From contig CANMSB010000002.1 of assembly GCA_947500445.1 (NCBI GenBank), positions 62,001 through 126,000 of the forward strand: a DNA stretch of 64,000 nucleotides, read 5' to 3'. The notes beneath the pieces are model-generated. The model ran no database searches. It had not been told where the DNA came from and saw only the letters and a program-made list of their open reading frames with translations. This document shows, piece after piece, positions 12,353 through 63,616 of this stretch (the first letter of the stretch is position 1; each line of letters begins with the position of its first letter). The position numbers were made by a program, and so were the translations under genes. This DNA comes from an uncultured Flavobacteriaceae bacterium (GTDB lineage Bacteria > Bacteroidota > Bacteroidia > Flavobacteriales > Flavobacteriaceae).

Positions 12353-13306
12353 TTAGTAGGTACATCTACAATTACTAAGGCCCTGGAAGAGATCTACTCC
12401 AATGGTAACTACATGGGTACCGGTGCTATAGGTGATAATTTCGTTCAAGATGATCTGGTAGGAATATCCAAAATAGAAATTGGATTTTTTTAAACCTGCA
12501 AAAGGCGCAATATAAAGGGGATCACCAATTTGGTCGTTCAAGAAACGGTAATTGACACCGGCATAATAGTAATCCTCAAAATCGTACCATCGAAATTTAA
12601 GGTTAAGGTCCGTTTCGGAACGGCCATCACTTTCAAAAATCTTGTACAGTAACGAAGGCTCTATTTCCAGGTCGCTATTTTTATTTTTTCGGTAGCGATA
12701 GCCAGTGTATACGTAATAATTTCGAAGTTCGTTGGGTTCGTCGGCATCAAAGGTAAGGTCCCTAGGGTCTTTTCCTAAAAGGTTGGACGCATTTGCACTA
12801 AGATAAAATTTACCGTAGCGGTACATGGCACCTACATCAAAGTTATGGTTGGTGGTTTGCCGGTTGTTCACTACAGAGGGATCTAAATTACCATCGATAA
12901 ACTCGTCGATATCGATACGAAATTGATTGAAATTATAGGAGAGTCCCAAAGATAGAAATTCATCGTCGTAGCGATCCAAGGTAAGGTGATGCGCAAAGGA
13001 AAGGCGCGCTCCCTGTTGTTTGGTGTAACCGTTGCTATCGTTGTAAAGAAAAAGTCCCACCCCGGATTGTTCGCCGACACGCATGTCCGCGGCCAAAGAT
13101 TGGGTCTGGGGCGCATCTTTAATACCCACCCATTGTGCAAGTCCGTTAAGCCTGATCTTTACATGATCTCCAATACCAGCATATACCGGCGACAACACAA
13201 AAGGGTTGTCGGCCAAATACTGGGACAATTGTGGTGAATTCAGTTCTTGTCCTCTGGCTAGTATGGAGCAAAAAAGGAGGCCAAATGTTAATAGCGTATT
13301 GCGCAT
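12353..13306 (-). CDS. PorP/SprF family type IX secretion system membrane protein
   Basis: Outer-membrane beta-barrel-like protein of 317 residues in the PorP/SprF family. Such proteins are needed for surface delivery of specific T9SS type B cargo; SprF serves SprB in Flavobacterium johnsoniae. A signal peptide covers residues 1-19, followed by the family-typical QLSQYLADNPFVLSPVYAG opening and alternating aromatic strands up to a short C-terminus with LSNCRCTY. It begins 19 bp after the stop of the giant SprB-like gene, the same order as sprB-sprF, so the adhesin next door is its likely client. Confidence 0.92.
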   Translation of the reverse strand: MRNTLLTFGLLFCSILARGQELNSPQLSQYLADNPFVLSPVYAGIGDHVKIRLNGLAQWVGIKDAPQTQSLAADMRVGEQSGVGLFLYNDSNGYTKQQGARLSFAHHLTLDRYDDEFLSLGLSYNFNQFRIDIDEFIDGNLDPSVVNNRQTTNHNFDVGAMYRYGKFYLSANASNLLGKDPRDLTFDADEPNELRNYYVYTGYRYRKNKNSDLEIEPSLLYKIFESDGRSETDLNLKFRWYDFEDYYYAGVNYRFLNDQIGDPLYIAPFAGLKKSNFYFGYSYQIILNEIITYSTGTHVVTIGVDLFQGLSNCRCTY

Positions 13307-13325: not shown

Positions 13326-16300
13326 TTATCGATATAGGGTAAAATGGCCAACAAACTCGCGCTCGTCGGTTTCTCCGTTCAGTTTAATAATGTACCAGTA
13401 ATCCCCGCTAGGCAGTTCTTTGGCTTGGTAAATGCCTTCCCATCCCGGATCACCGATGCCCATTCTATAAATCTCTCTACCATAACGGTCAAAAATGATA
13501 GTTAGTATCTTTGGAAAGCCTTCATCGTTTCTTGGTTTCCAAGTATCGTTCAAACCGTCTCCATCCGAAGGGGTAAAGAAGTTTGGAATTTCGATATCGA
13601 TGAACTCCATAAATATGGTGCCACTGGTCTCACAACCGTTTTCATCGACCACCCGAACGGTATAGGTGTCGGTACGGTTTATTCTGTAGGTGTTGTCGTT
13701 GCCGTTGTTGATATCGTCAAAATAGAAGTTATACGGTGCCCTTCCTCCACTGGCCACGGCGGTAATTTCATTAATGTTCCGCTGTTGAAGTATGAGTTCT
13801 AGCGGTTCAAAATCATCGATGACAAAAGGATGCGGTTCACTTACGCAACGGCCGCTAAACAATGTAATATAATGTTCGCCCGGAGCAGAATTCCTGAAAT
13901 CCGGTGTCAACTGCGCATCATTGATATCTTGCGAGTCCAGCGCGTAAAGCACGTCGCCAAGAACACTTTCGTCTTCCAATGTAATGTTTACATAATTGGA
14001 CAGCACATCGGTGGCGCATTCATATACCGGAGTAACATTAGCATTTAAGTTTACCCCAGGAGCTACTGTGGTAATGGCCAGTGCCGGACAATCGTTCTCA
14101 TCCAAAAGGTATATTTCATAAATACCGGGTTCCAAATTTTCAAATTCGTAGCCGTCGGTAATCGGCACATGACCGGAGTCCACATTGAGCGCGGCTCGGT
14201 ATTGTCCCGTACCACCGGTGATATTTAACCGAATACTTCCATCATTACGGTTCAAACAACTTTCTCCTGTGGGTTCTACCGTCAATTGTAAGGGGGCCGG
14301 TTCAAAAATGGTAATTTCGAAAAAGCTTGGTGGACATCCGTTCGAGTCCTGTGCGATGACCCTATAAACAATACCCCTTGGAGAACCTTCCAAACCGGTA
14401 AACGTGTTTATAGTATCGAATTGTTGTAGGTTGTTGTCGTTCGGTCCGGAGATTGCATATTGGTAAACGCCGGTTCCTCCTCCATTGTCCAGAATTGTAA
14501 TGGTACCGTCGTTCTCTTCGGAACAGGTGGCGTCGGTTTGCGTCGGTGTAAATTCGAGGAAGGTGGCCGGTGCAACGATAACCTGTATCGGGTTGGCCGT
14601 ACAGTCCTCACTGATGACGTTTACATAATAGGTTCCGGCAACCAGGTTCGGGAATTCTCCGGTGGTATTGGTGCCGGGCAAACGTGTGGTGGCATCCAAA
14701 TTTGCCGGATCCAGCGCATCCAGGTCGGCAAGGCTTCCGGTATAGTTGGTGTACAGTTCATATTCGTAGTCTCCCAAACCACCAATGGCATCGGCATAAA
14801 TGGTGGCGGTATCGTCAAAACACCCTATAAGGGTCGCCTCAACGTCTATAAGCGCTAACGGGGTGATTTCCGTTTCGGTAATTCCGTTGGACATCACGGC
14901 ATCGCATTGGTTGGCATCGCGGACCAAAAACTGGTAGGTTCCCGCTCTTAGCGGACCGGTAAAGGAAGCATTAGGGAATACTTCAGAATCACCGCCGGAC
15001 ATTGGTGTCCACGTATTGTTTTGGGTATTAAAATATTCATAAGGTCCAACTCCCGTACCTGCGCCGCCCGTAGCGGTCAGTAAGAACGTGGCGCCGTTAT
15101 TACAGGTCATTGAAGCTGTTTTTACCAACTGTGGCGCTACCTCGGTCGGGTTAATGACCTCTATTATATTGGATTCCTCGGAACAACCGATATCGTCACT
15201 TACGGTAACACTATAAAAACCAGGTGATAAATCGTCGAATGTAGGTCCATTTTGGACAACACTCTGTTGGGGAGTATTCGAAGCACTGTCACCATAACGG
15301 TTCAATTGATATTCATACACCGGATTTGCAGGAACCGTCCGAGGTCCTACCATTGCCGTTAAGCTGGCATCGTTACCATTAAAACAACGGAGTATCGGCG
15401 TAGGTATGGTAGCCACAATATCATCGGGTTGTTCCAGTACGATTGCAGTGGCGAACGTAGCAGGGGTACAGTTAATGGCGTCCGTAATGGTAATGTCAAA
15501 ACTTCCTTCGGTAAGGTTCTCAAAGATATAGGCCGAAACGCCCGTTTGCGTAAAGCTTTGTGATGCGGACTGTATGGTGATGGTGTATGGACCAACACCG
15601 CCCGTTGGCGCAACCCTTATTTTACCCTCGTCGTTTCCGGCGCCACAGCTTACAAATGCTTCAATGGTGGCATTTGGCATAATTTCATCGGGCTGGCTAA
15701 TGGCAAAATAATTGTTCAGATCACAGTTCGGAACGCCTACTTGTGAAATCTGTACCCGGTAATTGCCAAATGGCAATCCGTTTGGATTGATGACCGTATT
15801 GGCGGGAGCCCTGCCTTGATCTACTTGGGTATCATCCGTAAAATCGGTTTGTGTTCCGTTGGTTTCAAATATGGTCCAATCAAAATCACCGGTATAGCTG
15901 CTATCAGAAATTTCCAAGGTAATCGCCCCAGTGGCGGTGTTATAGCAGATGACATCGTTCAGTTTGTCAATGGCAAGACTGAAGGTGTTGGGGTCTTCTA
16001 CGATATATTGTACCTCCAATATGCATTGGGTAGCAATGTTCTGCGCTTCAAATCGATGTACACCGACTTCTAAACCAGGGAACACGGCAGAGGGCTGATA
16101 TGTACCGCCCAATTCTCGGAACTGGTAGTTGGCAGGATCCGCCACGGAGTTGGTAAAGGCACTTTCGGCATACAAGGTCACCGTTTCAAATCCACAAGAA
16201 TCGGGAGTTGCGGTAGCCGTAAGATCGGTAAACTCATCAAAAGGCACAATTTGAACGGTGTTTGCCGCCATTCCCGAACAACCATCCGTGTCAAAAACCT

Positions 16301-19300
16301 CAATGGTATAGGTTCCTCCCGCAAAATCGGTTTCCGTATAGTCCGGGCTGCTGCCGTCCTGTACCGTAATGCCGGTATCGGTGTTTACGAATACGTATCT
16401 AGGGTAGGTATTGGTACCTCCGGTAACACCGGTAACGCTAATGGTAGGGAAGTCCGTTCTGTTGCCATTACTACATTCAAAGGAAACCGGGCTCGGGTCG
16501 GGAACCAGTATTTCGGTAGGTTGCGCAATCGGAATGTCAATGGTATCGGAACAACCATTGTCGCCCGTCACTGTCACCGTATAGCCGACACCGCTGGTGC
16601 TGGAAAGGCCGTCAAAAGTGGCGGTCAATGCCGTGGTAGTTGTTGGTAGTATCGATGTTGCGGCACCATCTACAGCGGTAATTTCAAAATTGTACGGGCT
16701 TAGGCCATTGTCGGGAACGCTAACGGTGATCAAACCGTCCGCTACGTTAAAACAACTGGCATCGTCCACATTATCGATCGCAATTTGCGGATATACGATG
16801 GCGACCAACTCTTCTACAATGGTTTTGGGACAACCACTGATGTCATCCGTAATGGTAAAGGTATATTCCCCAACATCGGATAGGCCTGTAAATACCCCTG
16901 TGTTTTGTGGTGGAAAGGGTGTAGAACCGTCAGGGAACGTTACCGTATAGGTATAGGTACCCGAGGATCCACCGGTATGGGTAATGGTAATTTCACCCGG
17001 ACCGTTACAGTCGATAGGTTTGACGATGGTCTTTGAGGGAACGATAGGGTCAAAGAACGTAATCGTTGTCGGTGTTGTGGCGGTACATCCCCATTGGTCG
17101 GTGATGTCCACGGTGTAGTCGCCCGCTCCCAATCCTGTAAACAAGGTCGTCGTCTGCGGTGCGCCAAAAGCGATTCCGTTTCGTAATAACTGGAACGTAT
17201 AGCCACTCCCCTGTCCGCCACTAATAGGATTGCCGGAAGGAATACCGGTAATTTCGATTTCCCCTTCAAAATCGGTACAGTTTTGTTGGATGATCTGCAA
17301 ATCCGCTAATATCGGGGACGGATCTGTTAGTGTAACATCCGGTAATTGGTGTGCACAGCCTTCGCGGTCCATGATCCATACCTCATAGGTGGCAGCACTC
17401 AGGTTGTCCGCCCTCGGATTTGTATCATAGTTGGCCGCATCATTGGTATCGGGAGTTAAGGAAGTGTCAAAAATGAAGTACGAATAACCGCCCCAACCTC
17501 CTTGAACGTCGATAATTTCAATAGTTCCGTTGTTTGTGGGGTTACAGGTGATTTCGGTAAACGTGCGGTCTCCGGAAATCGGATCGCTAGGTTCGCCGAT
17601 GGTAAAGGCACGTCTGTTGGAACAGCTGGGCAAGTTTGTTTGGGTAATCTCAATGTTGTATCCTGAGGCGATCAGTGCATTTGATGAGAGTGTGTTTTCA
17701 TCGCCAGAGTCGTACGCTATGTCATCGGTATAATCCAATGGCGTATTGTTGTCCCTATAAATCGTCCAAGTAAACGGTCCGGTGTAAGTGGCGTCCGTTA
17801 GGGCGAAAGTAACCGCACCGGTGGCACTGCCATGGCACACTACATTGTTCGTTACGGTAACATCGATATCAAAGGTGTTCGGGTCTTCGATGGTTTCCGA
17901 TACGGGCAGTATACACCCGGTGTCCTTATGGCGTACCAATATCGTGTGGGGGCCTATGGACAAGCCACTGAAAACATTGGGGTCTTGCCAGGAGGTACCG
18001 TTGTCGATACTGTATTCGAACCTTGTGGTATCGTTGAACGTAGAGGTCGCCGTGATGGTGATTTCCCCATCGGGGGTTGGGCTACAGCTCACGGTATAGG
18101 CGCTGGAGACCGATAATAATTCGTCAAAACCGAGTATGGTAACCCTTGTTGGAAGCGCAGCATTGGAGCAACCTTCATCGTCATAAACGATGATGTCGTA
18201 GTCACGGTCAGTATTAATGACCCTGGTTTCCGTATAGGTGTTATCCGTACCATCTTGCAATACGGTCGTCGTGGCGGTTTCTATAAACACGAACCTTGTA
18301 TAAGTACCCGACCCACCGTTGACCGATCCGGCACCACTGGTAAGCACGGTGATAACGGCGTTGTTTTCATTGTTTCCTGCGGTACACGCAAATGGGGTAA
18401 TGGCGATCGCCGTTAGCGGAACATCCACTATTGAAGGTTCGGATATGGTAATCGGTATGGTAGTATCCCTAGGGCAATTGTTGGTAGCGGCATCGGCGGT
18501 AGCCGTAACTACGTAGCCAGCAGCTGTCGTTGTTGGCGCGAGCCCGGTAAAGATAGCACTTGTAGCCGATGTGGTGGTGGGCAGTATGGAAACTGCGGCA
18601 CCATCCAAACTGGTAATCCTAAACGTATAGGGACCGATTCCGTTATCAACAACACTGACCGTAATGGTACCGTCGTTTTCGCCGAAACAACTGATATCAG
18701 TTGCCGCAATGTCGTCAAAAACAGGTGTTATCCGGTCTTCGACCCTTAGCGGTATTACCGTTGGGCAGGCCGACGAATTGGTATCGTATATGGAAACCGT
18801 GTACACTCCTGGGGTATCGGCCAGGTTCCATACGGTACTATGGGTCGGCGATGCGACTCCTGAAGCGGGTATGGCCGTTCTGGTCTGATTGACCGGACCG
18901 TTGATTTCATATTCAAAATTGCCCGATCCGTCCGTAGCCGTAATGGTAATTTCCGCATTGCCCGAACCGATACAGTTCAACAGTCCGGTTACCGTGGCGC
19001 TTGCCTGAAATTTTGGAAAAATAGTGAAGTTTTCCGTTTCCCCACAACCCTCCAAGTCCTGAATGGCAACCGTTTGTGCAACAGTACTGGAACTCAACCC
19101 TGTTATGGTGTATTCGTTACTGGCATCAAAAACGATGTTCTGGAAGGCCGAACCGTTGACACTTATGGCATAGGGAGCGTTACCCGCTTGGTCGAGCGTT
19201 ACCAGCACCTCATAATTGCCCTCGGTAGCGCACTCATCTACGACGGCCAACGAAATTTCGGGATCGGGATCGGTTTGCACATCAATTCGCGGCGATTTCC

Positions 19301-22300
19301 AAATACAGTGAAAGGCGTCTTTGATATACACGTCATAACTACCGCCTTCTACATTAAATACGTTGGTTGCCGAACCTGCCCAAGTGGCCCTTACCGGTGG
19401 GGTTGTCAAAAACGGCAATATTTGGTATTCGTAGGGTCCGGTACCAAATTGTCCATTGGCAGTGATAACACCTGCATTTAGATTACAATTGTCGTTTTTG
19501 GTAACGTTTACGTCGCCCGATAGCGGGTTTACCGACTCTCGGATGGTAAAGGTGCCACCAGCTACCGAACAGCCGGCGTACGGACCGCCTACTTCCGTCA
19601 ATAACAGATAATACTCGCCCTGTGGCAAAGCTCCTGCGTTGTTTATGGTTTGGGCGGTGACGGGAGCGCTTACCGGCACGGAAATAGGAGCTCCGGTGGA
19701 AATGTTGGACTGTGCATTGAATATTTCGTAAGTTACATCTGATGCCGCGGCATCGTAATTGTCAAAAGTGAACGAAATGTTTCCATCGGCAAATCCAGTG
19801 CAGCTTACATTGGCCACCTCATCCAAGGTCGACGTTAGATTGGATGGCGAATCGATAGGCAATAAGGCCTCTTCAAAATAATAACAGTTGGTCACATTGT
19901 CGTAAACGACAAAGGTATAGGTGACTCCCGGGCTAAGATAAATACCATTTGCCGCCTGCGAAAAGGTTACCGTATCCCCGCCAGGGGTATCCGGCCCAAC
20001 GTAGTTGCTGGAATAGGGCGGTGTATTGCTTTCGTAAATGGCAAAAGAATAATCACCACTACCAACAGCACTACTTACCGAAACGATTGCGGTCCCTCCA
20101 TCGGCGCAACTTGCCGTTGCCGTGGTGACATCAATGTCCAGATCATTGGGCGGCGAGGCGATAATTTCGGTTTGAAACGCAGAACACCCATTGGCATCGA
20201 CTACGTCAATTTGGTAAATACCAAAATTTAAGATATCGAAGGTATGGTCTCTGGTAGTAGCAGTAGTGGCATGTGTTTGCGTAGGGATGCCGTTATTGGC
20301 CGAAAGGTAATACGTGTATTCGGCGGTGCCTCCCGTAATTCCTGAAATACTTATAGAGCCCGGATTGGTGGTAGTGCCACTCACATCACAGGTGATAGGA
20401 GTGCTCGTAGCCGTATAGTCGATAATGGCCGGCTCGGTAATGGTTTCGGTACCCACAACAAAACACCCTTTGGCGTCCGTTACGGTCACTTCATAATTTC
20501 CTGCTGCGAGGCCTGTAGTCTGTGTGCCGTAGTTGGTGGCCGTACTGGTGTTTACCACGGAAATGGTAAAGGGCGCCAAACCGATATTGGTATCGATAAC
20601 GATATCCAAGGCCCCGGAAGCATCATTGTTACACCGTAGGTTGGTCGGGGTAATACTTGTGATGACCGGTGTAAGGGCCGGAGAAACCACAACCTCATTG
20701 GTGGTTACGGTACATACGGTCGGTGTTGTGGTGTCGGATACCAAGAAATAGTAGGTGCCGTCGGTATTGGTGGTAAATACGTTGCCCGTAAAGCCGCTGG
20801 TGTTCCACGGTCCAGTGGCGGTGTTGCCCCACTGATAGGAGTAAGTTCCCGAACCGCCGATAGCGTCGATATCAATAGTAGCGTCCGCCGTACAGGTCAG
20901 ATCCGACCGTAAGGTGGCGGTCGCCCTTAGCTGAGGGTTCAATACGATGGTTTGTTGGGCAGGGCTACAGCCGTATGCATCCCGAACATCGATCGTATAG
21001 CTACCGTTGGCCAAGTTGGAGAACGTATAGTTCGATGAGTTGGCCGGTGTTGGGGCTTCCCATGGACCTCCATCGATGCGGAACAGGTATGCTCCATTTC
21101 CTCCGGTAACATTTACTGCTATGGTACCGTCGTTGGCACCGGAGTAACAAGGTGTAGGGACGGCGGTAAACGCTGGTATTGTTGGGGTAACAATGGATAA
21201 GGCCGTATCTATTTCGTCATCGCAACCGTTTACGTCCCGCGCCCTAACGATATAATCTCCTGCCGACAATCCGGAAAAAATGGTATTGGACCCGTTAGTG
21301 GCATAATCGTAACCGCTAATGGCAGTTCCACTCGTGTTCTCCAACTGATATTCGTATCCAGGGGTTCCTCCCATGGCATCGGCCGTTATGGTGGCACCTG
21401 TGGCGGTATTGTTACAGGTCAACACTTCTGTTACACTCGCCGTGGTGCGCACTGCGCTGGGTGCGGTCAATGTTCGTGACAAGGGAAGCGTACAGGACCC
21501 AACGGTAATATCGATGTTTAGGGTACCGTCCCCTAGGCCTGTTAAATCTAATGGGCTGGTGGTTCCGGTCTGTGTAGTGGTGCCACCATCAGTGGTGTAG
21601 CTATAGCTACTGCCAAAATTTTCGATTTCGATACGGATGGTCCCGTCGGTGTCAGAATTACAGCTGGGGTCGGTAGCTCTGATTATTGTGGCGGCAAAGG
21701 CTTGTCCGTCCAAAACGGTAAGGTTATGGTCGAGCGAACAATCGCGCCCATAGTCTACGGTAACCGTATGTGGGCCGGGGGAAACATTGGAAAACACATT
21801 GGCTCCCGTTCCGGTCTGGCCGGGCAATGCCCCATCCAGGATATAGGTGTAATTGGCGTCAAATGGGGTAATGGTAATGTTTCCGGATCCATCGCAATTA
21901 TAGGTGATGGAATCTCCTAGGGTCGGTGGGGTCGGTAAGGGGTCGATTACCACATCCGGTAAAACGAGGGTACAAACAGGGTCATTGGCGTCCCGAACGA
22001 GAATAGTGTAGGTACCATCTGCTAAATCGGTAAAAATATGACCTCCCGTAGTGCTTGTGGTCCACGCACCATTGTTAATGTTGTATTGGTAGCTGCCGGA
22101 GCCTCCCATGGGGTTGCTCACGGTAATTTGCCCAAGTACGGGCCCACAGAGATAATCCTGTGTGAGTACTGGGTTATCAGCGGACAACGCGTCGGGCTGT
22201 GCTATCGTTCTGGCAATAAATGCAGGGAGATTACATCCTCTGTTGTCGATGACCTGAATTTCATAATCTCCCTGTGAAAGGTTTGGAAAGTTAGGGGAGA

Positions 22301-25300
22301 GTTGGTAGGAAGCGCCGTTGTCGATACTATAACGATAGGGTGCTTCTCCTCCTCCATTGACCGTTACCGATATGCTACCATTTGCGCCGCCGTTACAACT
22401 AACGTCGTCATGGGCAACACTGACATCCAATGGCGGATCTTGGGCGATAGTAATCGGGAACAGTTCTTGGCAGTACCCCGGATTTCCCGAATTGTCCCGA
22501 ACAAACACATCATAATCATCGGGAACCGACACTGAAATCGGATTGGTGGTGGAGAAATTCCCGTCCGGCGGAACGGTACCGCGCGGGGCAATGGCAAATA
22601 CAAGGGTCCCCGACCCACCGTTTGCAGTAATGTTTATGTCCGTTGCGGTATCACATGCGCGAATGTTGGCGGCGGTGGCGGAAATATTCAGGGATGGACT
22701 TATTTGGGCAGTTTCCTGTACCGCATCGCATCCCAGACTATCACTAACATCGATTGTGTAAGATCCGTTTGACAAGTCTTCAAAAACATAGGTATTTGGT
22801 GTCGCCGTATCCGGGGATAGCCAAGGGCCGGTTCCGTTCAATTGGAACAAGTAAGTGCCAGTACCACCCGAAACGGTCACCGTAATGGTGCCATCACTAT
22901 TACCGCTGTAACAATCGGTTGCGTCTACCGTATCGATAACAGGTGCGCTAGGGGTAACAATTTGAATGGGTGTGCCCGTCTGTGCAGGGCAATTATTGGT
23001 ATCTAAAACGGCCACGATGTAACTGCCCGCTCCCAATCCTGAAAAGACCGTATTGGTAGTATTGGTGGCAAAATCGTATCCCGTAATCGGGGTGCCGGTA
23101 TTGGCATCTTGCAGTTGATAGGTGAAACCGGGGATACCTCCCGTAGCGTTGGCCGTGATGACCGCGTCATCGGCATTACAGGTCAGCGCGGAGGTAACCG
23201 AAGCATTTACGGTTATCAAATCGGGTTGGGAAATTGTTGTCGTTAACGAGAACATACAACTGGTATCGTCCGCCTTACGGATCCAAACGGTATGTGACCC
23301 GGCCGCATAGAGCTCCGGTGTGGGTTGTGGGGAAGTAGTGCTATTGGTCCAAGTGCCCCGATTGTCCACGGAGTAGTCAAAACCGGCGGTTGGGTCAAAA
23401 TTGGCCACGCTAAAGGTAATACTACCGTTGCTTTGTCCGTTACATGTTACATCTTTGGTTCCGGTAATGGCCCCTTCAAAGGTTCTACCACCCTCGATCA
23501 ACACCTCGGTATCGATAGATTGTTCGCAAACTTCCGGTGTCTGTTCCACCAGAATATCGTCAATGGCGACGTCATTGCCATTATCTTCACTTTCATTAGT
23601 AATAATCAATAGCTCCAAGCTACTATTTGTGCCAGGGTTTAACGAAATTAAAGGAGGTTGGTTCCAAGTGTTGTTACGAGGAATGATACCTGTTGTTGCA
23701 GAAGCTACCAAATTTCCGGTACCACCGGTCGCACTGACCTCTCTAAGTTCAATAGTCAAATCGGGGTCAACTCCATTGGGGTTCCCCATTTGCATGAGGT
23801 TTAAAGCCCACAAAGAAACTGTGATGTCTTGATTTGGGTAAATATCATTTATTATACTACGATAGATGGCTTGTCCCGTATCGGGTTCACCGATATTTAC
23901 TACCAAATATCGACCATCGGGATCGCTTCCGTTGGAGGTATGATCTGTCACCGGGCGGATCCAAGCACCAAAAGGACTAACAATGTTGCTGGTGACGGCA
24001 TATTCGTTGTCGTTTATTTGGGTGTTGGTACCGTCCCCTGGGCGCATATTGGCGTGTGTGCCCCCTGTTTGATCTTCATAGTAATATATGGTGGTATTGG
24101 GGCTGGGCACCGTGGGTCCCGAGCCGAAATCTTCCAGTAAAAGAACACTAGGTGTCGGTGGAGTTTGTGGAATATAATTTGTTGTTACCGTATAAGTGGC
24201 GGGCGTGAGTCCGGTAAAGGTATTGCTATCGGGAGGGGTATTCAACACCCCATTAAGTTCATAGGTATAGTCGTAGGTGGTAATGTCCGGACTCATTTCA
24301 ATGGTGCCAAGACCATCACAACCATAGTCCACTGTTGGCGTAAGGGTGACGATGGGCCGTTGTGGCAAATCGTCCACGGTGATATTCATAGGGAATTCGC
24401 AGTCGTTGGCATCCCTGACGATGATAGTATACGATCCCGCTTGAAGGTCGGCCACACTATTGGTTCCAAAGTTGGCACCACCATCAAAACTATAGCTGTA
24501 GGGTGCCGTACCACCGGTAACATTGGTGACCCGAACCTGCGCTCCCAAGGTAGGGTTACAACTAACGTCCCTGGATACCCCGGTAGCCGCGGATAACGGA
24601 AATGGTTCGTTGACATCGTGTACAAAACGTACCTCGCAACCGGAGTCGTCCGTAACGACTACATTATAGGTGCCGGCACCTAGGTTTACAAAGCCTGCCG
24701 TGTTTTGGAAAGTGGTTCCGTCATCGATACTGTATTGATAGGGCGATACCCCACCTGTGGCCACAATATTGATTTCGCCATCGGTCCGCCCACTACAGGA
24801 AACATCGACCGGAGTGGGCACTGTCGCCGTCATGGAGCCGTTGTCATCTATGCGAACGGGATTAGAATATCCGATACAGTTGTTATCGTCTACTACGATA
24901 AAGATGTAGGTTCCATCATCGTTGGGAATATAGGTATAGATGTCATCGGCGTCCTCATCTTCCCATCCAAAGGTAAAGGTATTGCTCAACCGAAATTCCG
25001 AACCCGGAATATCGCTAATGTCGGTATATAACTGACTTCCGTTTTTACTCCAAATGGCATAACTGTATTCTGTGCCGGCAGGACCCCCGTTGGGAGTAAG
25101 TTCAATTGTGCCGGCAGTACAACCAATATTTGCCGTTGTTATAGCGGAAACAACGGGATTAGGATCTCGGGATAGCGTTACATCGGTAACATTAAAACAA
25201 CCGTCCGCTGTTCGGGTAATGATATGATAATCTCCTTGGGTAAGGTTGTTAAAGGTAAAATTGTTGCTGGGTTGTGCCCTTTCATCATCCAAAAACGTTC

Positions 25301-28013
25301 CACCGGGATGCCCGGCATAATAATCCGGACTGGTAATCGGGGGCGGTGGGCTACCATCGGCGATACGAATTTCGTAATGATAATCCCCTACCACGTTCAG
25401 GGCCTGAATGTTTATGGAACCGGGGGTATTGCAATTTTCCGGGGTCAGGTTGGTGGTTACCTCAAAAGGTCGTTGCAATACTTCTATGGGATCGGTTTCA
25501 AATACACAGGCCCCTGTTAACGGAAGTCCGTCCGGCCCCAATTGGATCACTTCTACCTTGTAGGCCCCAGAGGTGGTAATATCAAAGCTATTGCTGACAC
25601 CATAAGGTACTTGAACGCTATTGGTGGACAAGTTGAACAATTGAAAACCATAGCCACTGGTCGGTCTGGTGACCGTAATGTTGCCCGGGGTTTCACAAAT
25701 GATGTTCCTTGATCGGAATTCGATGTCGAGGTTGTTCTGAAATACGTTAAAGTAAAAGATACTGGTACAACCGTCCTGGTAGGTGAGTACCACCCGATAC
25801 TGGCCTGCCGTATTTGCCGTAAAAACGTTTCCGGTAGTGACCTCGGAATAACAGCTATTGGTTACCGTAGGGCATGAAGGATCGGTATTTACGCAACTTC
25901 CCGATGCATTAAAACGCTGCCAGGAAATTCCGCGAGCATCCGATATGTTCAGCGATATGTTTTGGGAATCGTTAGATCCGCAAAGGAAAAGGTTGGTAAT
26001 GTCCCGTCCATTATCGCTACAGGTGGCGATTTCGCCCCGGATATCATTGTCGGGATCTCCATCGTTATTGGCATCGTTAAACAGGGCAATGATCGGATCG
26101 GTCTGGGTGGTGCCAAAACGCTCTACATTGATGATTTCCTTAAAACCCTTACAAGGATCGTCTATTTGTTTGTCCACAATATAGGTGCCGACATCGCTTA
26201 CTACAATACTGTTCTGGGGTCCATCGGACAATACGGGATCACCTGGGTCGATTTCACCATTATTGTTGGCATCAAGGACCCATACATAGTTGTTGAAGTT
26301 TTCTCCAGCTTCTAATTGTATGCTGTTTCCACAAAGTTGTTCCGTTCTTGTAAAATTACAATCGTCTAGATCATCGAGCAAGAAATTGGTTGCGCCCGGA
26401 GTTACAAAACCACAATTGTCAAAATCCGAGACACTGGGGTCATCGGATATGGTAGCGGAATTGTCGACACCGCGATAGGTGGAATAAGCTAGATTATCGA
26501 TTCTATTGGAACAAGCGTCTACAAAATCAAAGCAATTTTCGGCAACCCTCACTTGAATTCGAATAGTATATCGGGGCCCACCCTCCAAAACCAGATTATC
26601 GGGTATCGCGAAAAAGAGCTCTCCGGGAGCTTCTTCCTTATAAACAACATTAGGCGCCTGTGATAGATCTACGTTTACAAGTGTCGTATTTATAGGGAGC
26701 AGATCGCGAATGATGTAATTTGCCTCGTAGGGGTCTGAGCTTCCGGGTATTAAACCTGTGGCATCATCATTTCCAATGTTATTAAACGTAAGCTCGTAAA
26801 TCAGATCATCTCCCAAGTTTACTCCGGCACCGGTAATATCGTTGGTATTGGGGTCGGGATTGCCAAATTCGCGAACCTTTTTCTCCAACACAATATTGGG
26901 TTCGATAATTTCAACTGCAAATACCGCCAGAAAAGGACCATAACCATCACCTGAAGACGTGAAACGCAAGGTCGCCTCTGTTTCGTCATTCGGTAATATA
27001 GAGTTTAAGTTGTTGTCGAGTTCAATTAAATCCAAGTCTAGACCCAAGGTGTTCGTACCATAGGGGGTTCTTGTGGGAACCTGATTTCCTTTATAGGTTA
27101 TTGTGGAATTGAAGAAATTGTTTCTGGGGTTGTTGTTCTCTTCCAACCTATTGAACCCGCCCGCTGCTATTGGGGTATCGATTAAGAATCGATCTCCGCG
27201 AATTCCCAAATCCCCTTCCAACGCCGCTACACCAATATTGGCATTAACATTAAAAGGAGCGGGTAACGTTCTAAAACCCTCGACCAATACATCAATATTA
27301 CTGGCACTTCTGGATACACTGGCGTATCCGTCAAATGTGGAAATGAACTTACCAGGTTCGGTAGGGTTTTCATAGATAACTACCAAGACCCACCCTGCGG
27401 AGCTGGAACCACTGCGCCTTCCGCGAGTGGCCCTGATATTGGCCGCGGTATATTCCCCGTTGGGATTGGCGTTCGAACGAACTAAATCGGTTACATTTTT
27501 ATAGCATACTACAGGACCGTCCTTTATAAATGTCCCTGGATTTGCTGGTTGATAACCATTGACTATAATATCATCTTCTTCCCCGGCCGGGTCAGGGTCA
27601 TTATCTGCAACGAGGTCTACATAGTTACCTCCCGGAATTTTGAACTTTATTTCGTTCCACTCCTCTATTCTTGGTGTGCCGCTAAATTGTTGTCCTCCAT
27701 TGGTGCTTCGTTCATTGGGGTAAGTTCCCGCCCAATAGAGTCCGGCATATCGTACTTGCGAACAATCCGGATCCGGAATGTTAAGTTCGGCACTACTTGA
27801 GCTAAAGGTAGCGGGATCGGAGTCAATGTCGATATACTCCATCCAAAGGCTATTGTTGTTCTGGTTTCCGTTGTAAGGGGTATTTGCTTGTTGCGGGTTG
27901 CTTTGGCTCGCCCGGTTCATGATGTTGTTTCCTACCAAAAGGATATCCCCGCGAATTTCAATATTATCACCGTCCAAACGGGGTTCAAATTCTACGTATT
28001 CTTGTGCTGACAT
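13326..28013 (-). CDS. Giant SprB-like adhesin with T9SS type B sorting domain
   Basis: A predicted cell-surface adhesin of at least 4,895 residues. Residues about 1-370 form an N-terminal region with WMEYIDIDSDP and YAGLYWAGTYP, about 375-500 look DUF11-like, and from about 770 onward there are roughly 41 SprB repeats (core pattern CxxxxDGxIxVxxxGG, YxYSIDNG, GxYxVxVxDxxGC). One repeat is split by a 213-residue beta-sandwich-like module (residues about 1283-1495). The last 85 residues, from IPNFFTPSDGDGLND, are a gliding-type T9SS sorting domain. The ATG at 28013 gives MSAQEYVEF, but 23 codons upstream in the same frame encode a clear signal peptide whose cleavage falls at SAQ. True translation probably begins near 28082, where the codon is ACG instead of ATG. 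SprB itself mediates gliding on surfaces. Confidence 0.93.
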   Translation of the reverse strand: MSAQEYVEFEPRLDGDNIEIRGDILLVGNNIMNRASQSNPQQANTPYNGNQNNNSLWMEYIDIDSDPATFSSSSAELNIPDPDCSQVRYAGLYWAGTYPNERSTNGGQQFSGTPRIEEWNEIKFKIPGGNYVDLVADNDPDPAGEEDDIIVNGYQPANPGTFIKDGPVVCYKNVTDLVRSNANPNGEYTAANIRATRGRRSGSSSAGWVLVVIYENPTEPGKFISTFDGYASVSRSASNIDVLVEGFRTLPAPFNVNANIGVAALEGDLGIRGDRFLIDTPIAAGGFNRLEENNNPRNNFFNSTITYKGNQVPTRTPYGTNTLGLDLDLIELDNNLNSILPNDETEATLRFTSSGDGYGPFLAVFAVEIIEPNIVLEKKVREFGNPDPNTNDITGAGVNLGDDLIYELTFNNIGNDDATGLIPGSSDPYEANYIIRDLLPINTTLVNVDLSQAPNVVYKEEAPGELFFAIPDNLVLEGGPRYTIRIQVRVAENCFDFVDACSNRIDNLAYSTYRGVDNSATISDDPSVSDFDNCGFVTPGATNFLLDDLDDCNFTRTEQLCGNSIQLEAGENFNNYVWVLDANNNGEIDPGDPVLSDGPQNSIVVSDVGTYIVDKQIDDPCKGFKEIINVERFGTTQTDPIIALFNDANNDGDPDNDIRGEIATCSDNGRDITNLFLCGSNDSQNISLNISDARGISWQRFNASGSCVNTDPSCPTVTNSCYSEVTTGNVFTANTAGQYRVVLTYQDGCTSIFYFNVFQNNLDIEFRSRNIICETPGNITVTRPTSGYGFQLFNLSTNSVQVPYGVSNSFDITTSGAYKVEVIQLGPDGLPLTGACVFETDPIEVLQRPFEVTTNLTPENCNTPGSINIQALNVVGDYHYEIRIADGSPPPPITSPDYYAGHPGGTFLDDERAQPSNNFTFNNLTQGDYHIITRTADGCFNVTDVTLSRDPNPVVSAITTANIGCTAGTIELTPNGGPAGTEYSYAIWSKNGSQLYTDISDIPGSEFRLSNTFTFGWEDEDADDIYTYIPNDDGTYIFIVVDDNNCIGYSNPVRIDDNGSMTATVPTPVDVSCSGRTDGEINIVATGGVSPYQYSIDDGTTFQNTAGFVNLGAGTYNVVVTDDSGCEVRFVHDVNEPFPLSAATGVSRDVSCNPTLGAQVRVTNVTGGTAPYSYSFDGGANFGTNSVADLQAGSYTIIVRDANDCEFPMNITVDDLPQRPIVTLTPTVDYGCDGLGTIEMSPDITTYDYTYELNGVLNTPPDSNTFTGLTPATYTVTTNYIPQTPPTPSVLLLEDFGSGPTVPSPNTTIYYYEDQTGGTHANMRPGDGTNTQINDNEYAVTSNIVSPFGAWIRPVTDHTSNGSDPDGRYLVVNIGEPDTGQAIYRSIINDIYPNQDITVSLWALNLMQMGNPNGVDPDLTIELREVSATGGTGNLVASATTGIIPRNNTWNQPPLISLNPGTNSSLELLIITNESEDNGNDVAIDDILVEQTPEVCEQSIDTEVLIEGGRTFEGAITGTKDVTCNGQSNGSITFSVANFDPTAGFDYSVDNRGTWTNSTTSPQPTPELYAAGSHTVWIRKADDTSCMFSLTTTISQPDLITVNASVTSALTCNADDAVITANATGGIPGFTYQLQDANTGTPITGYDFATNTTNTVFSGLGAGSYIVAVLDTNNCPAQTGTPIQIVTPSAPVIDTVDATDCYSGNSDGTITVTVSGGTGTYLFQLNGTGPWLSPDTATPNTYVFEDLSNGSYTIDVSDSLGCDAVQETAQISPSLNISATAANIRACDTATDINITANGGSGTLVFAIAPRGTVPPDGNFSTTNPISVSVPDDYDVFVRDNSGNPGYCQELFPITIAQDPPLDVSVAHDDVSCNGGANGSISVTVNGGGEAPYRYSIDNGASYQLSPNFPNLSQGDYEIQVIDNRGCNLPAFIARTIAQPDALSADNPVLTQDYLCGPVLGQITVSNPMGGSGSYQYNINNGAWTTSTTGGHIFTDLADGTYTILVRDANDPVCTLVLPDVVIDPLPTPPTLGDSITYNCDGSGNITITPFDANYTYILDGALPGQTGTGANVFSNVSPGPHTVTVDYGRDCSLDHNLTVLDGQAFAATIIRATDPSCNSDTDGTIRIEIENFGSSYSYTTDGGTTTQTGTTSPLDLTGLGDGTLNIDITVGSCTLPLSRTLTAPSAVRTTASVTEVLTCNNTATGATITADAMGGTPGYEYQLENTSGTAISGYDYATNGSNTIFSGLSAGDYIVRARDVNGCDDEIDTALSIVTPTIPAFTAVPTPCYSGANDGTIAVNVTGGNGAYLFRIDGGPWEAPTPANSSNYTFSNLANGSYTIDVRDAYGCSPAQQTIVLNPQLRATATLRSDLTCTADATIDIDAIGGSGTYSYQWGNTATGPWNTSGFTGNVFTTNTDGTYYFLVSDTTTPTVCTVTTNEVVVSPALTPVITSITPTNLRCNNDASGALDIVIDTNIGLAPFTISVVNTSTATNYGTQTTGLAAGNYEVTVTDAKGCFVVGTETITEPAIIDYTATSTPITCDVSGTTTNPGSISISGITGGTAEYTYYLSANNGIPTQTHATTATTRDHTFDILNFGIYQIDVVDANGCSAFQTEIIASPPNDLDIDVTTATASCADGGTAIVSVSSAVGSGDYSFAIYESNTPPYSSNYVGPDTPGGDTVTFSQAANGIYLSPGVTYTFVVYDNVTNCYYFEEALLPIDSPSNLTSTLDEVANVSCTGFADGNISFTFDNYDAAASDVTYEIFNAQSNISTGAPISVPVSAPVTAQTINNAGALPQGEYYLLLTEVGGPYAGCSVAGGTFTIRESVNPLSGDVNVTKNDNCNLNAGVITANGQFGTGPYEYQILPFLTTPPVRATWAGSATNVFNVEGGSYDVYIKDAFHCIWKSPRIDVQTDPDPEISLAVVDECATEGNYEVLVTLDQAGNAPYAISVNGSAFQNIVFDASNEYTITGLSSSTVAQTVAIQDLEGCGETENFTIFPKFQASATVTGLLNCIGSGNAEITITATDGSGNFEYEINGPVNQTRTAIPASGVASPTHSTVWNLADTPGVYTVSIYDTNSSACPTVIPLRVEDRITPVFDDIAATDISCFGENDGTITVSVVDNGIGPYTFRITSLDGAAVSILPTTTSATSAIFTGLAPTTTAAGYVVTATADAATNNCPRDTTIPITISEPSIVDVPLTAIAITPFACTAGNNENNAVITVLTSGAGSVNGGSGTYTRFVFIETATTTVLQDGTDNTYTETRVINTDRDYDIIVYDDEGCSNAALPTRVTILGFDELLSVSSAYTVSCSPTPDGEITITATSTFNDTTRFEYSIDNGTSWQDPNVFSGLSIGPHTILVRHKDTGCILPVSETIEDPNTFDIDVTVTNNVVCHGSATGAVTFALTDATYTGPFTWTIYRDNNTPLDYTDDIAYDSGDENTLSSNALIASGYNIEITQTNLPSCSNRRAFTIGEPSDPISGDRTFTEITCNPTNNGTIEIIDVQGGWGGYSYFIFDTSLTPDTNDAANYDTNPRADNLSAATYEVWIMDREGCAHQLPDVTLTDPSPILADLQIIQQNCTDFEGEIEITGIPSGNPISGGQGSGYTFQLLRNGIAFGAPQTTTLFTGLGAGDYTVDITDQWGCTATTPTTITFFDPIVPSKTIVKPIDCNGPGEITITHTGGSSGTYTYTVTFPDGSTPFPPQNTGVFTGLSDVGEYTFTITDDISGCPKTIVEELVAIVYPQIAIDNVDDASCFNVADGLITVSVPDNGLSPYNFEITAVDGAATSILPTTTTALTATFDGLSSTSGVGYTVTVTGDNGCSDTIDIPIAQPTEILVPDPSPVSFECSNGNRTDFPTISVTGVTGGTNTYPRYVFVNTDTGITVQDGSSPDYTETDFAGGTYTIEVFDTDGCSGMAANTVQIVPFDEFTDLTATATPDSCGFETVTLYAESAFTNSVADPANYQFRELGGTYQPSAVFPGLEVGVHRFEAQNIATQCILEVQYIVEDPNTFSLAIDKLNDVICYNTATGAITLEISDSSYTGDFDWTIFETNGTQTDFTDDTQVDQGRAPANTVINPNGLPFGNYRVQISQVGVPNCDLNNYFAISQPDEIMPNATIEAFVSCGAGNDEGKIRVAPTGGVGPYTITIQSASQSFTQTGVSAYIFENLTEGSFDITITDAINCTPATFATAIVLEQPDDIVATIPTPILRCFNGNDASLTAMVGPRTVPANPVYEYQLNRYGDSASNTPQQSVVQNGPTFDDLSPGFYSVTVSDDIGCSEESNIIEVINPTEVAPQLVKTASMTCNNGATFLLTATGGAGTGVGPYEYFNTQNNTWTPMSGGDSEVFPNASFTGPLRAGTYQFLVRDANQCDAVMSNGITETEITPLALIDVEATLIGCFDDTATIYADAIGGLGDYEYELYTNYTGSLADLDALDPANLDATTRLPGTNTTGEFPNLVAGTYYVNVISEDCTANPIQVIVAPATFLEFTPTQTDATCSEENDGTITILDNGGGTGVYQYAISGPNDNNLQQFDTINTFTGLEGSPRGIVYRVIAQDSNGCPPSFFEITIFEPAPLQLTVEPTGESCLNRNDGSIRLNITGGTGQYRAALNVDSGHVPITDGYEFENLEPGIYEIYLLDENDCPALAITTVAPGVNLNANVTPVYECATDVLSNYVNITLEDESVLGDVLYALDSQDINDAQLTPDFRNSAPGEHYITLFSGRCVSEPHPFVIDDFEPLELILQQRNINEITAVASGGRAPYNFYFDDINNGNDNTYRINRTDTYTVRVVDENGCETSGTIFMEFIDIEIPNFFTPSDGDGLNDTWKPRNDEGFPKILTIIFDRYGREIYRMGIGDPGWEGIYQAKELPSGDYWYIIKLNGETDEREFVGHFTLYR
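15648..25696 (-). repeat. Higher-order repeat: seven SprB units per block, about six blocks
   Basis: Comparing the unit starts of the giant adhesin shows that every seventh unit is most alike. First units of successive blocks have their key Cys near 25696, 23183, 21416, 19490, 17548 and 15648. The spacing is about 1.77-1.94 kb (590-647 residues), except for the first block, which is longer because of a 640-bp insertion. Unit 1 shares the LTCN...YEYQL pattern, unit 4 the DVSCxGxxDG pattern, unit 6 YxCDGxGxI, and unit 7 a Cys followed by DGxIxFxxxNF. Confidence 0.75.
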
Positions 28014-28094
28014 CCAAGTTGTACAACTTAGAAACAGCGCTAGAAGTAACAGTCTGCGATATGGGGAACAATGATGTTTCGTAACGGTTTGGTT

Positions 28095-30293
28095 TTAGGT
28101 GATCATCTCGGCTTTCACCCGCATGATCCACATTTTTTCTTCGTAAGAATCGTTTAGTTTAGAGTAATAGGAAATCAAGGCGTTGTTCCATGATTCGTGT
28201 CGTTTCAGGTATACATACCGCCAGTTATTTTCTGGGTTAACGAAGTAACTTGCACTAAGGCCGTAGGAATTCAACAGTTTCACAAAACGATTGGCGTTTT
28301 TTGGACTGGCAAATACGTTGGCAATGATGTAATAGCCCGAGCCCACTCCGTTGATAATGGTTTCTCTCGTAACCGGCTGCACGTCGCCCACGCGGTCTTT
28401 TTGCACTTGATTGTAAACTACCTCTCCAGTATTATACTGGTCGGACTTTTCCTTTACTTTTTCCACGTTGCTTGCGTAACGGTCATTGGTATAGCGGTTA
28501 TCGACGTTCATGATCCAAAGATCTCCGTCATAACTGCCCCCCAAACTACTCTTGTAGGCTTCGGCGGCATCTTCCCAACTGTCATGACGCTCCAAATACA
28601 CATATTTGAGGCCGTTGTCAGGGTTGTCGATATAGTCGGTAACGAACCCTTGTTCGTTGAGGTCGTTCATAAATTTATCCATGTAATGACCGCCTTTGTA
28701 CACGTTGGCGACAACATAGTACCCATCTTGAACACCTTCCAAGTTTTTAAATTTTCGGCTTTTGATGCTTTCGCGGCTGGCGGCAGTGTTGTAGTCCTGC
28801 GCCTGCGTATTGTCCTGTGCAGTTTGGTAATTACCGGAGTTGGCATAGGCATCATTATCGGTGGTTGAGGTATAGCTGTTATCTGTGGCGTCAGAAGAAT
28901 TGGAATACTTACCGGTATTTGGGTCGTTTTGTGTAACGGCATCGGTATAGTCATCCTCTTTTCCTATTCCGGTATTGGGGATCACGTCCTGTTGTTGGGT
29001 GGTTACATTGTCATCATCGAAAGTTGTGCCGGTGTTTGCGGCAACAGCGTCGTCCCCGTTGCGGAACAAGCTTTCCGCCCTCTTTTCCAAATCGGGTCGT
29101 TCACCATCGGTTTCGTTACGGACCATGTGCATCACCATTTCGAATCTGCGCTCCAAATCTTTTTGACGGTTCGATTCGAGGGAATCCTGGCGGAACATTA
29201 ATTCGGCGATAATGGCATCGTTTTCGGCCAACTTGCGCTTCAATTCCTCTATCTCTTCGTTGCTGGCCAAGTCGGTATCTTCAGGCTCATCGTCTTCGGC
29301 CAGATCATTGTCGTCCTCTAGCATCACACGATCTTCGGTCAAGTTCGGTGTAAAGGAGTAGGCAAAGGAAATTTCATGGGTCACCCCAAAATTGTCCAGG
29401 TTGTTCACAAGCCCTTTTTCCATATTGTACCCGATGGATACCCTTCGGTTTATATTGAATCCTGCTCCTGCCGATGCGCCATAAAAATCGTCATACCCCG
29501 CCTGTACCCAGCCGAGTCGTGGCAGGTCGAGAATCAAACTACCGCCCAAGGTCAAGTCGCTGGCACCAGTGGACAAAGCCCGCTGGCCGTTCATACGAAC
29601 GCGCGCCAAAGGCAATAGTCGGGCATTTTCCAAAATACCGGTACTGTTGTCAAAAGGATAGGTATATTGTAAGTGTGCGGAGTAGGCCTTATCGCCAAAC
29701 TCCGAAAGCGATGCACTTGTTTTAAGGTTATATTCGATTAGGTTTTCGGCGTAGGCACCAAAGTCGAATTGTCCGTAAGAGATATTGAAACCCGGTTGAA
29801 AGGAAAGTACATTGCTGTCTTCCGTACCTACCAAACGGTTATCAAATTGGTCGGTAGCGGTGACCTCGTTAAGATTGAGCCCACTACTATAGTATGCTAA
29901 GTTACCACCGAAGGTAAAATTACTTTTATCGCTCAACTTTATACCATAGGCATAGTTCGCCAATACCCCAATATTGGATATGGGGCCTAGGCTTTGGTTA
30001 TACAAGCTAAGCCCAAGACCGCTCCTATCACCGATACGACCACTATAGCTTAAAAAATAGGTTTGATCGTTATCCTGAAATTGTACCGACTGGTTTCTAT
30101 GTAATAAATTGATGTACGACTTATCTTCCCGTACCGTGGAAAAGGTAGGGTTGATCAGGAACCGGTTGAACTTTAACAGGTTCTGAGGCGCCACACGGTA
30201 AGGCAAAATAGGGTCGTCTTCTTGCGCCTGCAAGGTGGTGGTTACCGCCAGCAGGGCAAGCATCGATAAGGATAACAGTCTTAAAAGCTTCAT
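28095..30293 (-). CDS. PorP/SprF outer-membrane protein fused to two SPOR-like modules
   Basis: A 732-residue envelope protein. Residues 1-24 are a signal peptide. Residues about 30-320 form a PorP/SprF barrel beginning LPYRVAPQNLLKFNRFLINP. An acidic linker and a short coiled coil (about 325-400) lead into an Asn/Thr/Asp-rich disordered stretch. The C-terminus holds two copies of an 80-residue SPOR-like module (about 524-600 and 653-732), each running from GYY to WIM-V. Classic SPOR domains bind peptidoglycan stripped of peptides. The same module occurs once in the OmpA-family protein at 53940-56447. It ends 81 bp before the adhesin gene and starts 32 bp after the upstream cargo gene, in the position of sprD in the sprCDBF operon. 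Confidence 0.88.
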   Translation of the reverse strand: MKLLRLLSLSMLALLAVTTTLQAQEDDPILPYRVAPQNLLKFNRFLINPTFSTVREDKSYINLLHRNQSVQFQDNDQTYFLSYSGRIGDRSGLGLSLYNQSLGPISNIGVLANYAYGIKLSDKSNFTFGGNLAYYSSGLNLNEVTATDQFDNRLVGTEDSNVLSFQPGFNISYGQFDFGAYAENLIEYNLKTSASLSEFGDKAYSAHLQYTYPFDNSTGILENARLLPLARVRMNGQRALSTGASDLTLGGSLILDLPRLGWVQAGYDDFYGASAGAGFNINRRVSIGYNMEKGLVNNLDNFGVTHEISFAYSFTPNLTEDRVMLEDDNDLAEDDEPEDTDLASNEEIEELKRKLAENDAIIAELMFRQDSLESNRQKDLERRFEMVMHMVRNETDGERPDLEKRAESLFRNGDDAVAANTGTTFDDDNVTTQQQDVIPNTGIGKEDDYTDAVTQNDPNTGKYSNSSDATDNSYTSTTDNDAYANSGNYQTAQDNTQAQDYNTAASRESIKSRKFKNLEGVQDGYYVVANVYKGGHYMDKFMNDLNEQGFVTDYIDNPDNGLKYVYLERHDSWEDAAEAYKSSLGGSYDGDLWIMNVDNRYTNDRYASNVEKVKEKSDQYNTGEVVYNQVQKDRVGDVQPVTRETIINGVGSGYYIIANVFASPKNANRFVKLLNSYGLSASYFVNPENNWRYVYLKRHESWNNALISYYSKLNDSYEEKMWIMRVKAEMIT

Positions 30294-56447: not shown

Positions 56448-56458
56448 GTGTAGGGTCG

Positions 56459-57379
56459 TTAGAAAAATCTTGGGGATTTTAATCTGTTTTCTCGAGTAAT
56501 CCATTGGTACCTGAGGAAAATCTCATGGGTACCCGTGTTATAATTATTGAGTTCGGTAATTGTATAATCGTAGGCATAACCCACATTAAACTTTGGGGAC
56601 AGCTGAAATCCGAACAATGCACTTACCGAATCGTCCCAACGATAGTTCACTCCTAAATTTAACGTGTTATTCAGCAAAAAATTGGCCGAGACGTCAACAG
56701 ATATCGGTGCGCCGGTCACTTGTTTAACAAAAAACGAAGGTTTGAACTTCAAACTTCGATTGACATCGAACACATAACCACCGATCAGGAAAAAGTGAAG
56801 GCGCTCTACCGCCTCCGACTCCTGAATTTCGTCATAATGGGCGTTGGTAAAGATATTCGGGGTCGACAATCCCAAGTAGGCCCTGTCGGTATAGTAAAAG
56901 ACACCTGCACCTATGGAGGGCAACAGTTTGCTATTAATGTTTTCGTTAAAACGGGTTTCGGGATCTCTAAAAAGACCCTTGTTCCAATCCAAACTGAAAA
57001 AACGGACACCTGCTTTAAGGCCGAGCGCCAAACGATGCCCTTTGTTGTTCAAAATCAATTGATGTGCATAGTTCCCATCGATATAGGTTTCTTCGGAAGG
57101 CCCGAGTTCATCCTGTACTATGGAAAGCCCCACACCGTCGAACCTGCCAATGGGAGAATCCAGTCCAAACGTAATGGTCCGTGGGGAACCTTCAATGCCC
57201 ACCCACTGATCCCTAAAAAGGCTGATGGCCGTCAAATGGCCCCGTGAACCGGTATACCCGGGATTAACGGTCATCGTATTGTACATGTAATGTGTTACCT
57301 GAGGGTCCTGTTGTGCATTCGCCCAGCAGGGGAGTAGTACAAGTAACAGCAAGAATTTAAAGATTTGGGATTCTTTCAT
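56459..57379 (-). CDS. PorP/SprF family type IX secretion system membrane protein
   Basis: Outer-membrane barrel protein of 306 residues. Residues 1-22 are a signal peptide, followed by the family opening QQDPQVTHYMYNTMTVNPGYTGSRG and alternating strands with FRDQWVGIEGSPRT. It is a different subgroup from the two PorP proteins of the first operon. It lies between the cargo gene at 57613 and the OmpA-family gene, a cargo-barrel-OmpA order that suggests a dedicated surface-delivery unit. Confidence 0.93.
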   Translation of the reverse strand: MKESQIFKFLLLLVLLPCWANAQQDPQVTHYMYNTMTVNPGYTGSRGHLTAISLFRDQWVGIEGSPRTITFGLDSPIGRFDGVGLSIVQDELGPSEETYIDGNYAHQLILNNKGHRLALGLKAGVRFFSLDWNKGLFRDPETRFNENINSKLLPSIGAGVFYYTDRAYLGLSTPNIFTNAHYDEIQESEAVERLHFFLIGGYVFDVNRSLKFKPSFFVKQVTGAPISVDVSANFLLNNTLNLGVNYRWDDSVSALFGFQLSPKFNVGYAYDYTITELNNYNTGTHEIFLRYQWITRENRLKSPRFF

Positions 57380-63411: not shown

Positions 63412-63616
63412 TTGTTTTTGGTATGTAGGTAAAATTTGGGTTTCCGGAACCGGTATGCTCGATACCAAGTTCACGACACTAAAATAAGCGCAAGGGTTTT
63501 CTGGGGGAAATCTTTGTTGTGTATCCGCTTTTTTTAATGGTAAATGCCTTATAACTTGTTATTTCCTACTTTTTTTCACTGTTGTTTGGTCGTTTTTTGT
63601 TTGGTCGTTTTTGGGG

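Follow-up and report, generated by a model that had tools for sequence, protein, structure and literature searches.

SprB, the gliding adhesin of Flavobacterium johnsoniae, is a protein of 6,497 aa and 669 kDa (PMC9870892, PMC9143113). Three other systems bear on how such a protein may be built. In the antigen I/II adhesins of streptococci (SpaP, BspA, and AspA), the stalk consists of two repeat regions of a single chain wound around each other; it raises a variable domain at the turn, and the N- and C-terminal domains come together at its base (PMC7732690). Grappling hook protein A (GhpA) of Aureispira (PDB 9flp, 9fls, and 9flw; Lien et al. 2024, cited by PMC13319060) is reported to be a heptameric, hook-tipped fibre. 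Nebulin, an animal muscle protein of small modules, grows mainly seven domains at a time, probably under a structural or functional constraint (PMC1553488). For the SprB fibre, the foot of Bacteroidota gliding motility, no account of the building plan was found in the open literature searched, nor any earlier description of a hairpin, a unit-count rule, or a higher-order period, the papers on F. johnsoniae SprB included (subscription journals and preprints lay outside that scope).

Here, we describe an sprB gene of an uncultured Flavobacteriaceae bacterium (assembly GCA_947500445.1, contig CANMSB010000002.1, positions 62,001 to 126,000; the window, a stretch of 64,000 nucleotides in which positions are numbered from 1). 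The gene (13326–28013, minus strand, as are all features given below) is a single open reading frame (ORF) of 4,895 aa that holds its whole array of 42 SprB-type units in one frame. We propose that this array very probably folds as an antiparallel hairpin that turns at unit 20, has its two termini together at the base, and ends in a short C-terminal stalk. Like F. johnsoniae SprB, it is a giant, repetitive surface protein with SprB repeats (PF13573; 20 matched stretches, E=2.4e-83, Pfam scan), a C-terminal type B sorting domain of the type IX secretion system (T9SS) (TIGR04131, 76.1 bits against a cut-off of 35, and PF13585; 13329–13595), and an adjacent sprF-like gene.

Results

The array was cut into units by a cysteine rule (a conserved Cys near the unit start and a second near its end), which can miscount. 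This segmentation gave exactly 42 units, or six blocks of seven; a first-pass annotation, made from the sequence alone, had recognized the seven-unit period correctly, with about 41 units in five blocks and a partial sixth. It had also expected an all-against-all alignment to favor partners n and n+7, which it does, mainly in two block pairs. The mean unit score reached 83.9 for units seven apart (lag 7) and 59.0 for lag 14, against about 43 to 55 at the other lags up to 24; once unit main effects were removed, lag 7 stood out with z=10.2 (p=0.0003 across all lags, the permutation floor), and the best-scoring partner lay exactly seven units away for 19 of the 42 units. The starts of units 8, 15, 22, 29, and 36 are spaced by 588, 643, 647, and 633 residues, in agreement with the 590 to 647 residues read earlier.

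Strong lag-7 similarity sits mostly in units 4–9 with 11–16 and units 24–28 with 31–35; it is weak for 11–16 versus 18–23 and absent for 29–35 versus 36–42, and a uniform sixfold (6 × 7) repeat was rejected because the similarity is confined mainly to these two block pairs. By the unit similarity matrix, the block of units 4–10 (22413–24812) is the lag-7 paralogue of units 11–17 (20649–22412; pairs 4–11 to 9–16) in the first half, and units 22–28 (17562–19502) are that of units 29–35 (15663–17561; pairs 24–31 to 28–35) in the second. One pair thus falls in each proposed arm, and the two mirror each other about i+j=40 (unit 20), as would be expected if each arm had gained one matching block. 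Tandem Repeats Finder found no DNA-level tandem repeat in sprB; the block duplications are old, since no such repeat is left in the DNA. When the full-length protein was compared with itself by BLASTP, no match off the diagonal was printed, probably because such matches lie inside the self hit; the units were therefore aligned one by one. Unit 6 carries an insertion of about 200 aa (residues about 1290–1490, 23544–24146; segmentation and domain scan) without a Pfam match. Among relatives, the insertion is found in unit 6, in unit 13, or in both of them, which is the same phase of seven, and also once in unit 10 (L081).

Relatives were taken from the family (80 genes, then 20 further ones), and 106 array entries were counted, a set that contains the window itself, a paralogue, and a few genes truncated at contig ends. 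All four full-length same-genus orthologues have 42 units with lag-7 z of 11 to 12, even the one (L031) that shares only 16 to 45% with the window over units 6–36. Across the 106 entries, 42 units were counted 52 times, 28 units 20 times, 22 units 12 times, and 56 units 11 times, while 27, 29, 31, 32, 34, 37, 45, and 48 units turned up once or twice each; counts by unit profile match those by the cysteine rule within a few. Lag-7 similarity is present in most relatives of at least 28 units. A later sample, read after the rule had been formed, comprised 17 genes found by searching at the order level, most of which belong to another genus of the family. It gave 42 units (six genes), 56 (four), 70 (two), 112 (one), and 27 or 28 (three), with one gene cut by a contig end. 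Arrays of 35 or 49 units occur neither among the 106 entries nor in the later sample, and steps of seven in the total count were rejected on this ground. On an N-terminal tree (FastTree, as for all trees), at least 27 count changes were needed for 85 rows, or at least 34 in a second tree count; the changes are scattered over the tree, so the counts do not stem from a handful of frozen lineages, although recombination may have raised the number of changes.

Several single cases were recorded alongside these counts. The 112-unit protein (L221 and L222, joined) is a 10,700-aa SprB of 8 × 14 units with lag-7 z=36, the largest found in the analysis. Four genes (L190, L191, L203, and L208) have 27 or 29 units by the cysteine rule, and such counts probably arise from units that lack the Cys pair or are hidden in a long insertion. 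One same-genus genome has a second SprB-like gene (L035, G009 contig C17; 4,175 aa, 41–42 units, weaker lag-7 signal), and the same genome as the window (G000) has further SprB-repeat proteins on contigs C4, C25, and C6 (ORFs of 2,884, 2,831, and 1,708 aa).

Unit-wise alignment of arrays of different size places two seven-unit gaps, one in each half, and not one gap of 14. In a brute-force split test, which allowed any division of the missing units between the halves, the best division was 7+7 in 40/40 pairs of 56 versus 42 units and in 40/40 pairs of 42 versus 28, 14+14 in 12/12 pairs of 56 versus 28, and 3+3 in 12/12 pairs each of 28 versus 22 and 48 versus 42. Among path-disjoint pairs, an even split was best in 21 of 22 (7+7 in 15, 3+3 in three, 10+10 in two, and 14+14 in one), the sole uneven pair being distant and weak. 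The later sample gave 14+14 in 12/12 pairs of 70 versus 42, 21+21 in 2/2 of 112 versus 70, 35+35 in 5/6 of 112 versus 42, and 28+28 in 2/4 of 112 versus 56. Growth by whole seven-unit blocks, as first proposed, is supported, but gain and loss come in pairs, one block per half, so that totals step by 14, which had been missed.

The sites of these indels were compared in mirror register, with each gap placed by its distance from the start of the array (half 1) or from its end (half 2). In the 12 pairs with both gaps sharp, the sites correlate (rho=0.80, p=0.002, n=12), while the parallel measure gives −0.25; a positive mirror-register correlation fits the prediction for an antiparallel register. 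In proteins of 31, 34, 37, and 45 units, the surplus units lie near the C-terminal end of the array. Six such proteins (L073, L093, L094, L106, L112, and L115, with 31 to 45 units) carry three or six extra units near that end, unpartnered in the other half, and lag-3 similarity was seen in L073, L093, and L094.

Covariation between units was measured as mutual information with average-product correction, summarized per unit pair. In the 42-unit class, it forms a ridge at i+j of about 38–41 (top pairs 6–33, 6–34, 18–22, 5–33, 5–34, and 13–30), and the best antidiagonal is n−2 in five of five sets (40 and 40 for clades A and B of the 42-unit class, 26 for 28 units, 54 for 56, and 20 for 22), with permutation p=0.024 for clade B and p=0.002 for 28 units. 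A second test, distance correlation after subtraction of the mean signal, has its maximum at 40 for 42 units (p=0.0105) and at 54 for 56 units (p=0.007) and is clear in two of four classes. Six null simulations, run on the same tree and matched to the observed rates along the array, reached at most 7.3 against the observed 44, and 0.087 against 0.431; rate symmetry about the center was rejected as the origin of the ridge, since the simulations are flat. Parallel arms were rejected by both indel positions and coevolution. Unit lengths across species show a weak, noisy hint of correlation at i+j=40.

Equal indels and mirror coevolution support two equal antiparallel arms, which would touch within one chain. 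By segmentation and mirror coevolution, arm 1 would comprise units 1–19 (residues 768–2630, 20124–25712) and arm 2 units 21–39 (residues 2733–4491, 14541–19817), with unit 20 as the candidate turn on the axis i+j=40 (19818–20123). Units 40–42 (13791–14540), near which the three or six extra units of odd-count relatives fall, would make up an unpaired C-terminal stalk.

The mirror center coincides with an exchangeable stretch. Similarity between close relatives is lowest in units 17–25 of 42, units 24–29 of 56, and units 8–12 of 22; in units 17–25 (18402–20909), it falls to 0.17–0.31. The least similar units are thus the central ones in all three classes, as in an antigen I/II-like architecture with a variable domain at the turn. 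When the central 13 units of the window were matched to named genomes of an independent set, the best match nearly always began at unit 7, 14, or 21.

The units are predicted as beta strands (AlphaFold2). The central 13 units across the apex gave a mean predicted local distance difference test (pLDDT) score of 83.3 and a predicted template modeling (pTM) score of 0.54, and a 13-unit stretch of arm only gave 82.1 and 0.36; in these models, the higher pTM across the apex agrees with arms that come together only if both are included. Matches to Ig/FN3 proteins from Foldseek and VIA were dismissed as common beta-sandwich strings. The nearest solved relative is GhpA, which is homologous to the SprB units (profile E=4.6e-28, 13 stretches), whereas phmmer with the whole SprB against PDB found no match; the structural match to 9flw (446 residues, rmsd 9.2, Z 9.3) reflects similar domain strings.

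The array is preceded by an N-terminal nonrepeat region (residues 1–767, 25713–28013; ORF and domain scan) without a Pfam match. The sprB ATG at 28013 falls within an apparent signal peptide; read in frame upstream (28014–28094), the sequence is KHHCSPYRRLLLLALFLSCTTW-MSAQ, and the codon directly ahead of it is ACG where a start Met is expected, which would be an unusual start or, alternatively, a wrong base in the draft assembly. Downstream lies the sprF-like gene for a PorP/SprF outer-membrane anchor (12353–13306; PF11751, E=3.1e-71), and upstream are genes with PorP/SprF and with Ig and CHU_C domains. One of these (28095–30293) has a PorP/SprF domain; the other (30326–32563) encodes Ig-like domains and a T9SS sorting domain (TIGR04131 below threshold, PF13585 above its cut-off). 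We take them to be sprD-like and sprC-like, respectively, names assigned from gene order. With an SprF-type partner and sprC/sprD-like genes adjoining sprB, the operon looks like sprC-sprD-sprB-sprF, and this SprB may move on the cell surface and drive gliding. Elsewhere in the window, 57613–63474 encodes a 1,953-aa T9SS type B protein with DUF11 repeats, and close to it 53940–56504 encodes a PorE/CHU_0125-like OmpA protein; the two are possibly a second adhesin with its own anchor.

Discussion

In the hairpin that we propose, units 1–19 would run outward from the cell, unit 20 would lie at or near the turn (in general, the apex would be unit n/2−1), and units 21–39 would return alongside arm 1, with unit i beside unit n−2−i. 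The last three or so units would lead as an unpaired stalk to the C-terminal sorting domain, which SprF would anchor in the outer membrane. A block of seven units would be the length step of each arm, and three units a second, rarer step; seven units may plausibly amount to one structural repeat of two mutually wound arms. Because the arms must stay matched, a block change in one would be matched in the other, so that totals would move by 14 (or 6). The stretch that is exchanged between species would sit at the apex and contact the substrate. The structural period along the fibre that the first-pass annotation suggested is supported, though in the proposed picture it is a seven-unit step in each of two antiparallel arms and not the period of a single fibre; the mirror-order coevolution of the halves had been missed as well. 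Extended to the family, we consider it probable that SprB proteins are length-quantized hairpins with arms matched unit for unit, a swappable adhesive tip, a seven-unit step, and up to 54 units per arm.

SprB may work like streptococcal antigen I/II, as a hairpin stalk. The antigen I/II arms are alanine-rich and proline-rich repeats, whereas those of SprB would be beta-sandwich units, and we claim no kinship in sequence; Pfam and NCBIfam scans found no alanine-rich helix, proline-rich repeats, or LPXTG anchor in SprB, which places it outside the antigen I/II family. Matched block growth across species is not described in the review of those adhesins (PMC7732690). Nebulin resembles SprB in having expanded in blocks of seven, and mirror pairing of its halves is not reported in PMC1553488. 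By analogy, SprB would unite nebulin-like growth by sevens with an antigen I/II-like intertwined stalk and variable tip, in an unrelated protein.

If SprB were one extended fibre with a higher-order repeat of seven units, in which blocks duplicate freely and seven units make one superhelix turn, the lag-7 similarity of most relatives with at least 28 units would be accounted for. Such a fibre would also lead one to expect 35 and 49 units as often as 42 and 56, yet neither is seen, and it predicts neither one indel per half nor mirror coevolution; we regard it as quite unlikely. Pairing between molecules, with the N-terminal arm of one SprB antiparallel to the C-terminal arm of its neighbor in a multichain fibre, would yield the same two-sided length constraint and the same mirror coupling, and it has a precedent in the heptamer reported for the distant relative GhpA (PMC13319060). 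Every chain is anchored C-terminally through an SprF-type partner, however, the mirror center is a turn-like exchangeable stretch, and the higher single-chain pTM across the center leans toward pairing within the chain, so that this arrangement, too, is unlikely.

Paired changes and shared histories could also arise without any contact if recombination swapped centered segments between genes of unlike arm length: lineages do exchange central stretches, and one swap would add seven units to each arm. Such swaps require breakpoints symmetric about the center, which recombination alone does not supply, and they leave the equal arm-length differences of the donors unexplained. We think it very unlikely that this is the whole cause; centered recombination is likely a mutational route under the hairpin constraint and not its replacement. 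Neutral birth and death of units with gene conversion, which would make counts and symmetry accidents of ancestry or segmentation, can point to the counts of 27, 29, 31, 37, and 45 that break the rule and to the miscounts of which cysteine segmentation is capable. Equal splits in 21 of 22 path-disjoint contrasts, the later sample with its 56, 70, and 112 units, flat null simulations on the same tree, and unit-profile counts that agree within a few have already refuted it as a full account.

Several observations weigh against the hairpin. Odd counts (31, 37, and 45, also 27 and 29) occur. The mutual-information ridge is modest for all 42-unit arrays (permutation p=0.047), with p=0.24 to 0.29 for clade A of that class and for the 56- and 22-unit classes; in the distance test, the 28-unit class is not significant (p=0.30, peak at 26/27), and the 22-unit class (p=0.71) peaks elsewhere, with n−2 ranking fourth. 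Coevolution at the unit level has no power to tell contact from joint replacement. Both pTM values are moderate, and the arm-only control is not matched to the apex stretch in length or in depth of alignment. For GhpA, the distant solved relative, PMC13319060 reports a filament-spanning chain in a heptamer, with no hairpin and no mention of folded-back arms. Finally, the length that has been reported for SprB, about 200 nm with 6,497 aa, does not demand a hairpin (PMC12635249, PMC9870892).

The paired, equal, and mirror-placed block indels found in many lineages make SprB an unusually clean example of structure read from the evolution of copy number. If the hairpin is right, the adhesive part of SprB would be the middle of the protein and not an end, which would account for the exchange of central units between species. 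The length of the fibre would be predictable from the unit count, and a change in the length of one arm would break the fibre, whereas a matched change in both would not.
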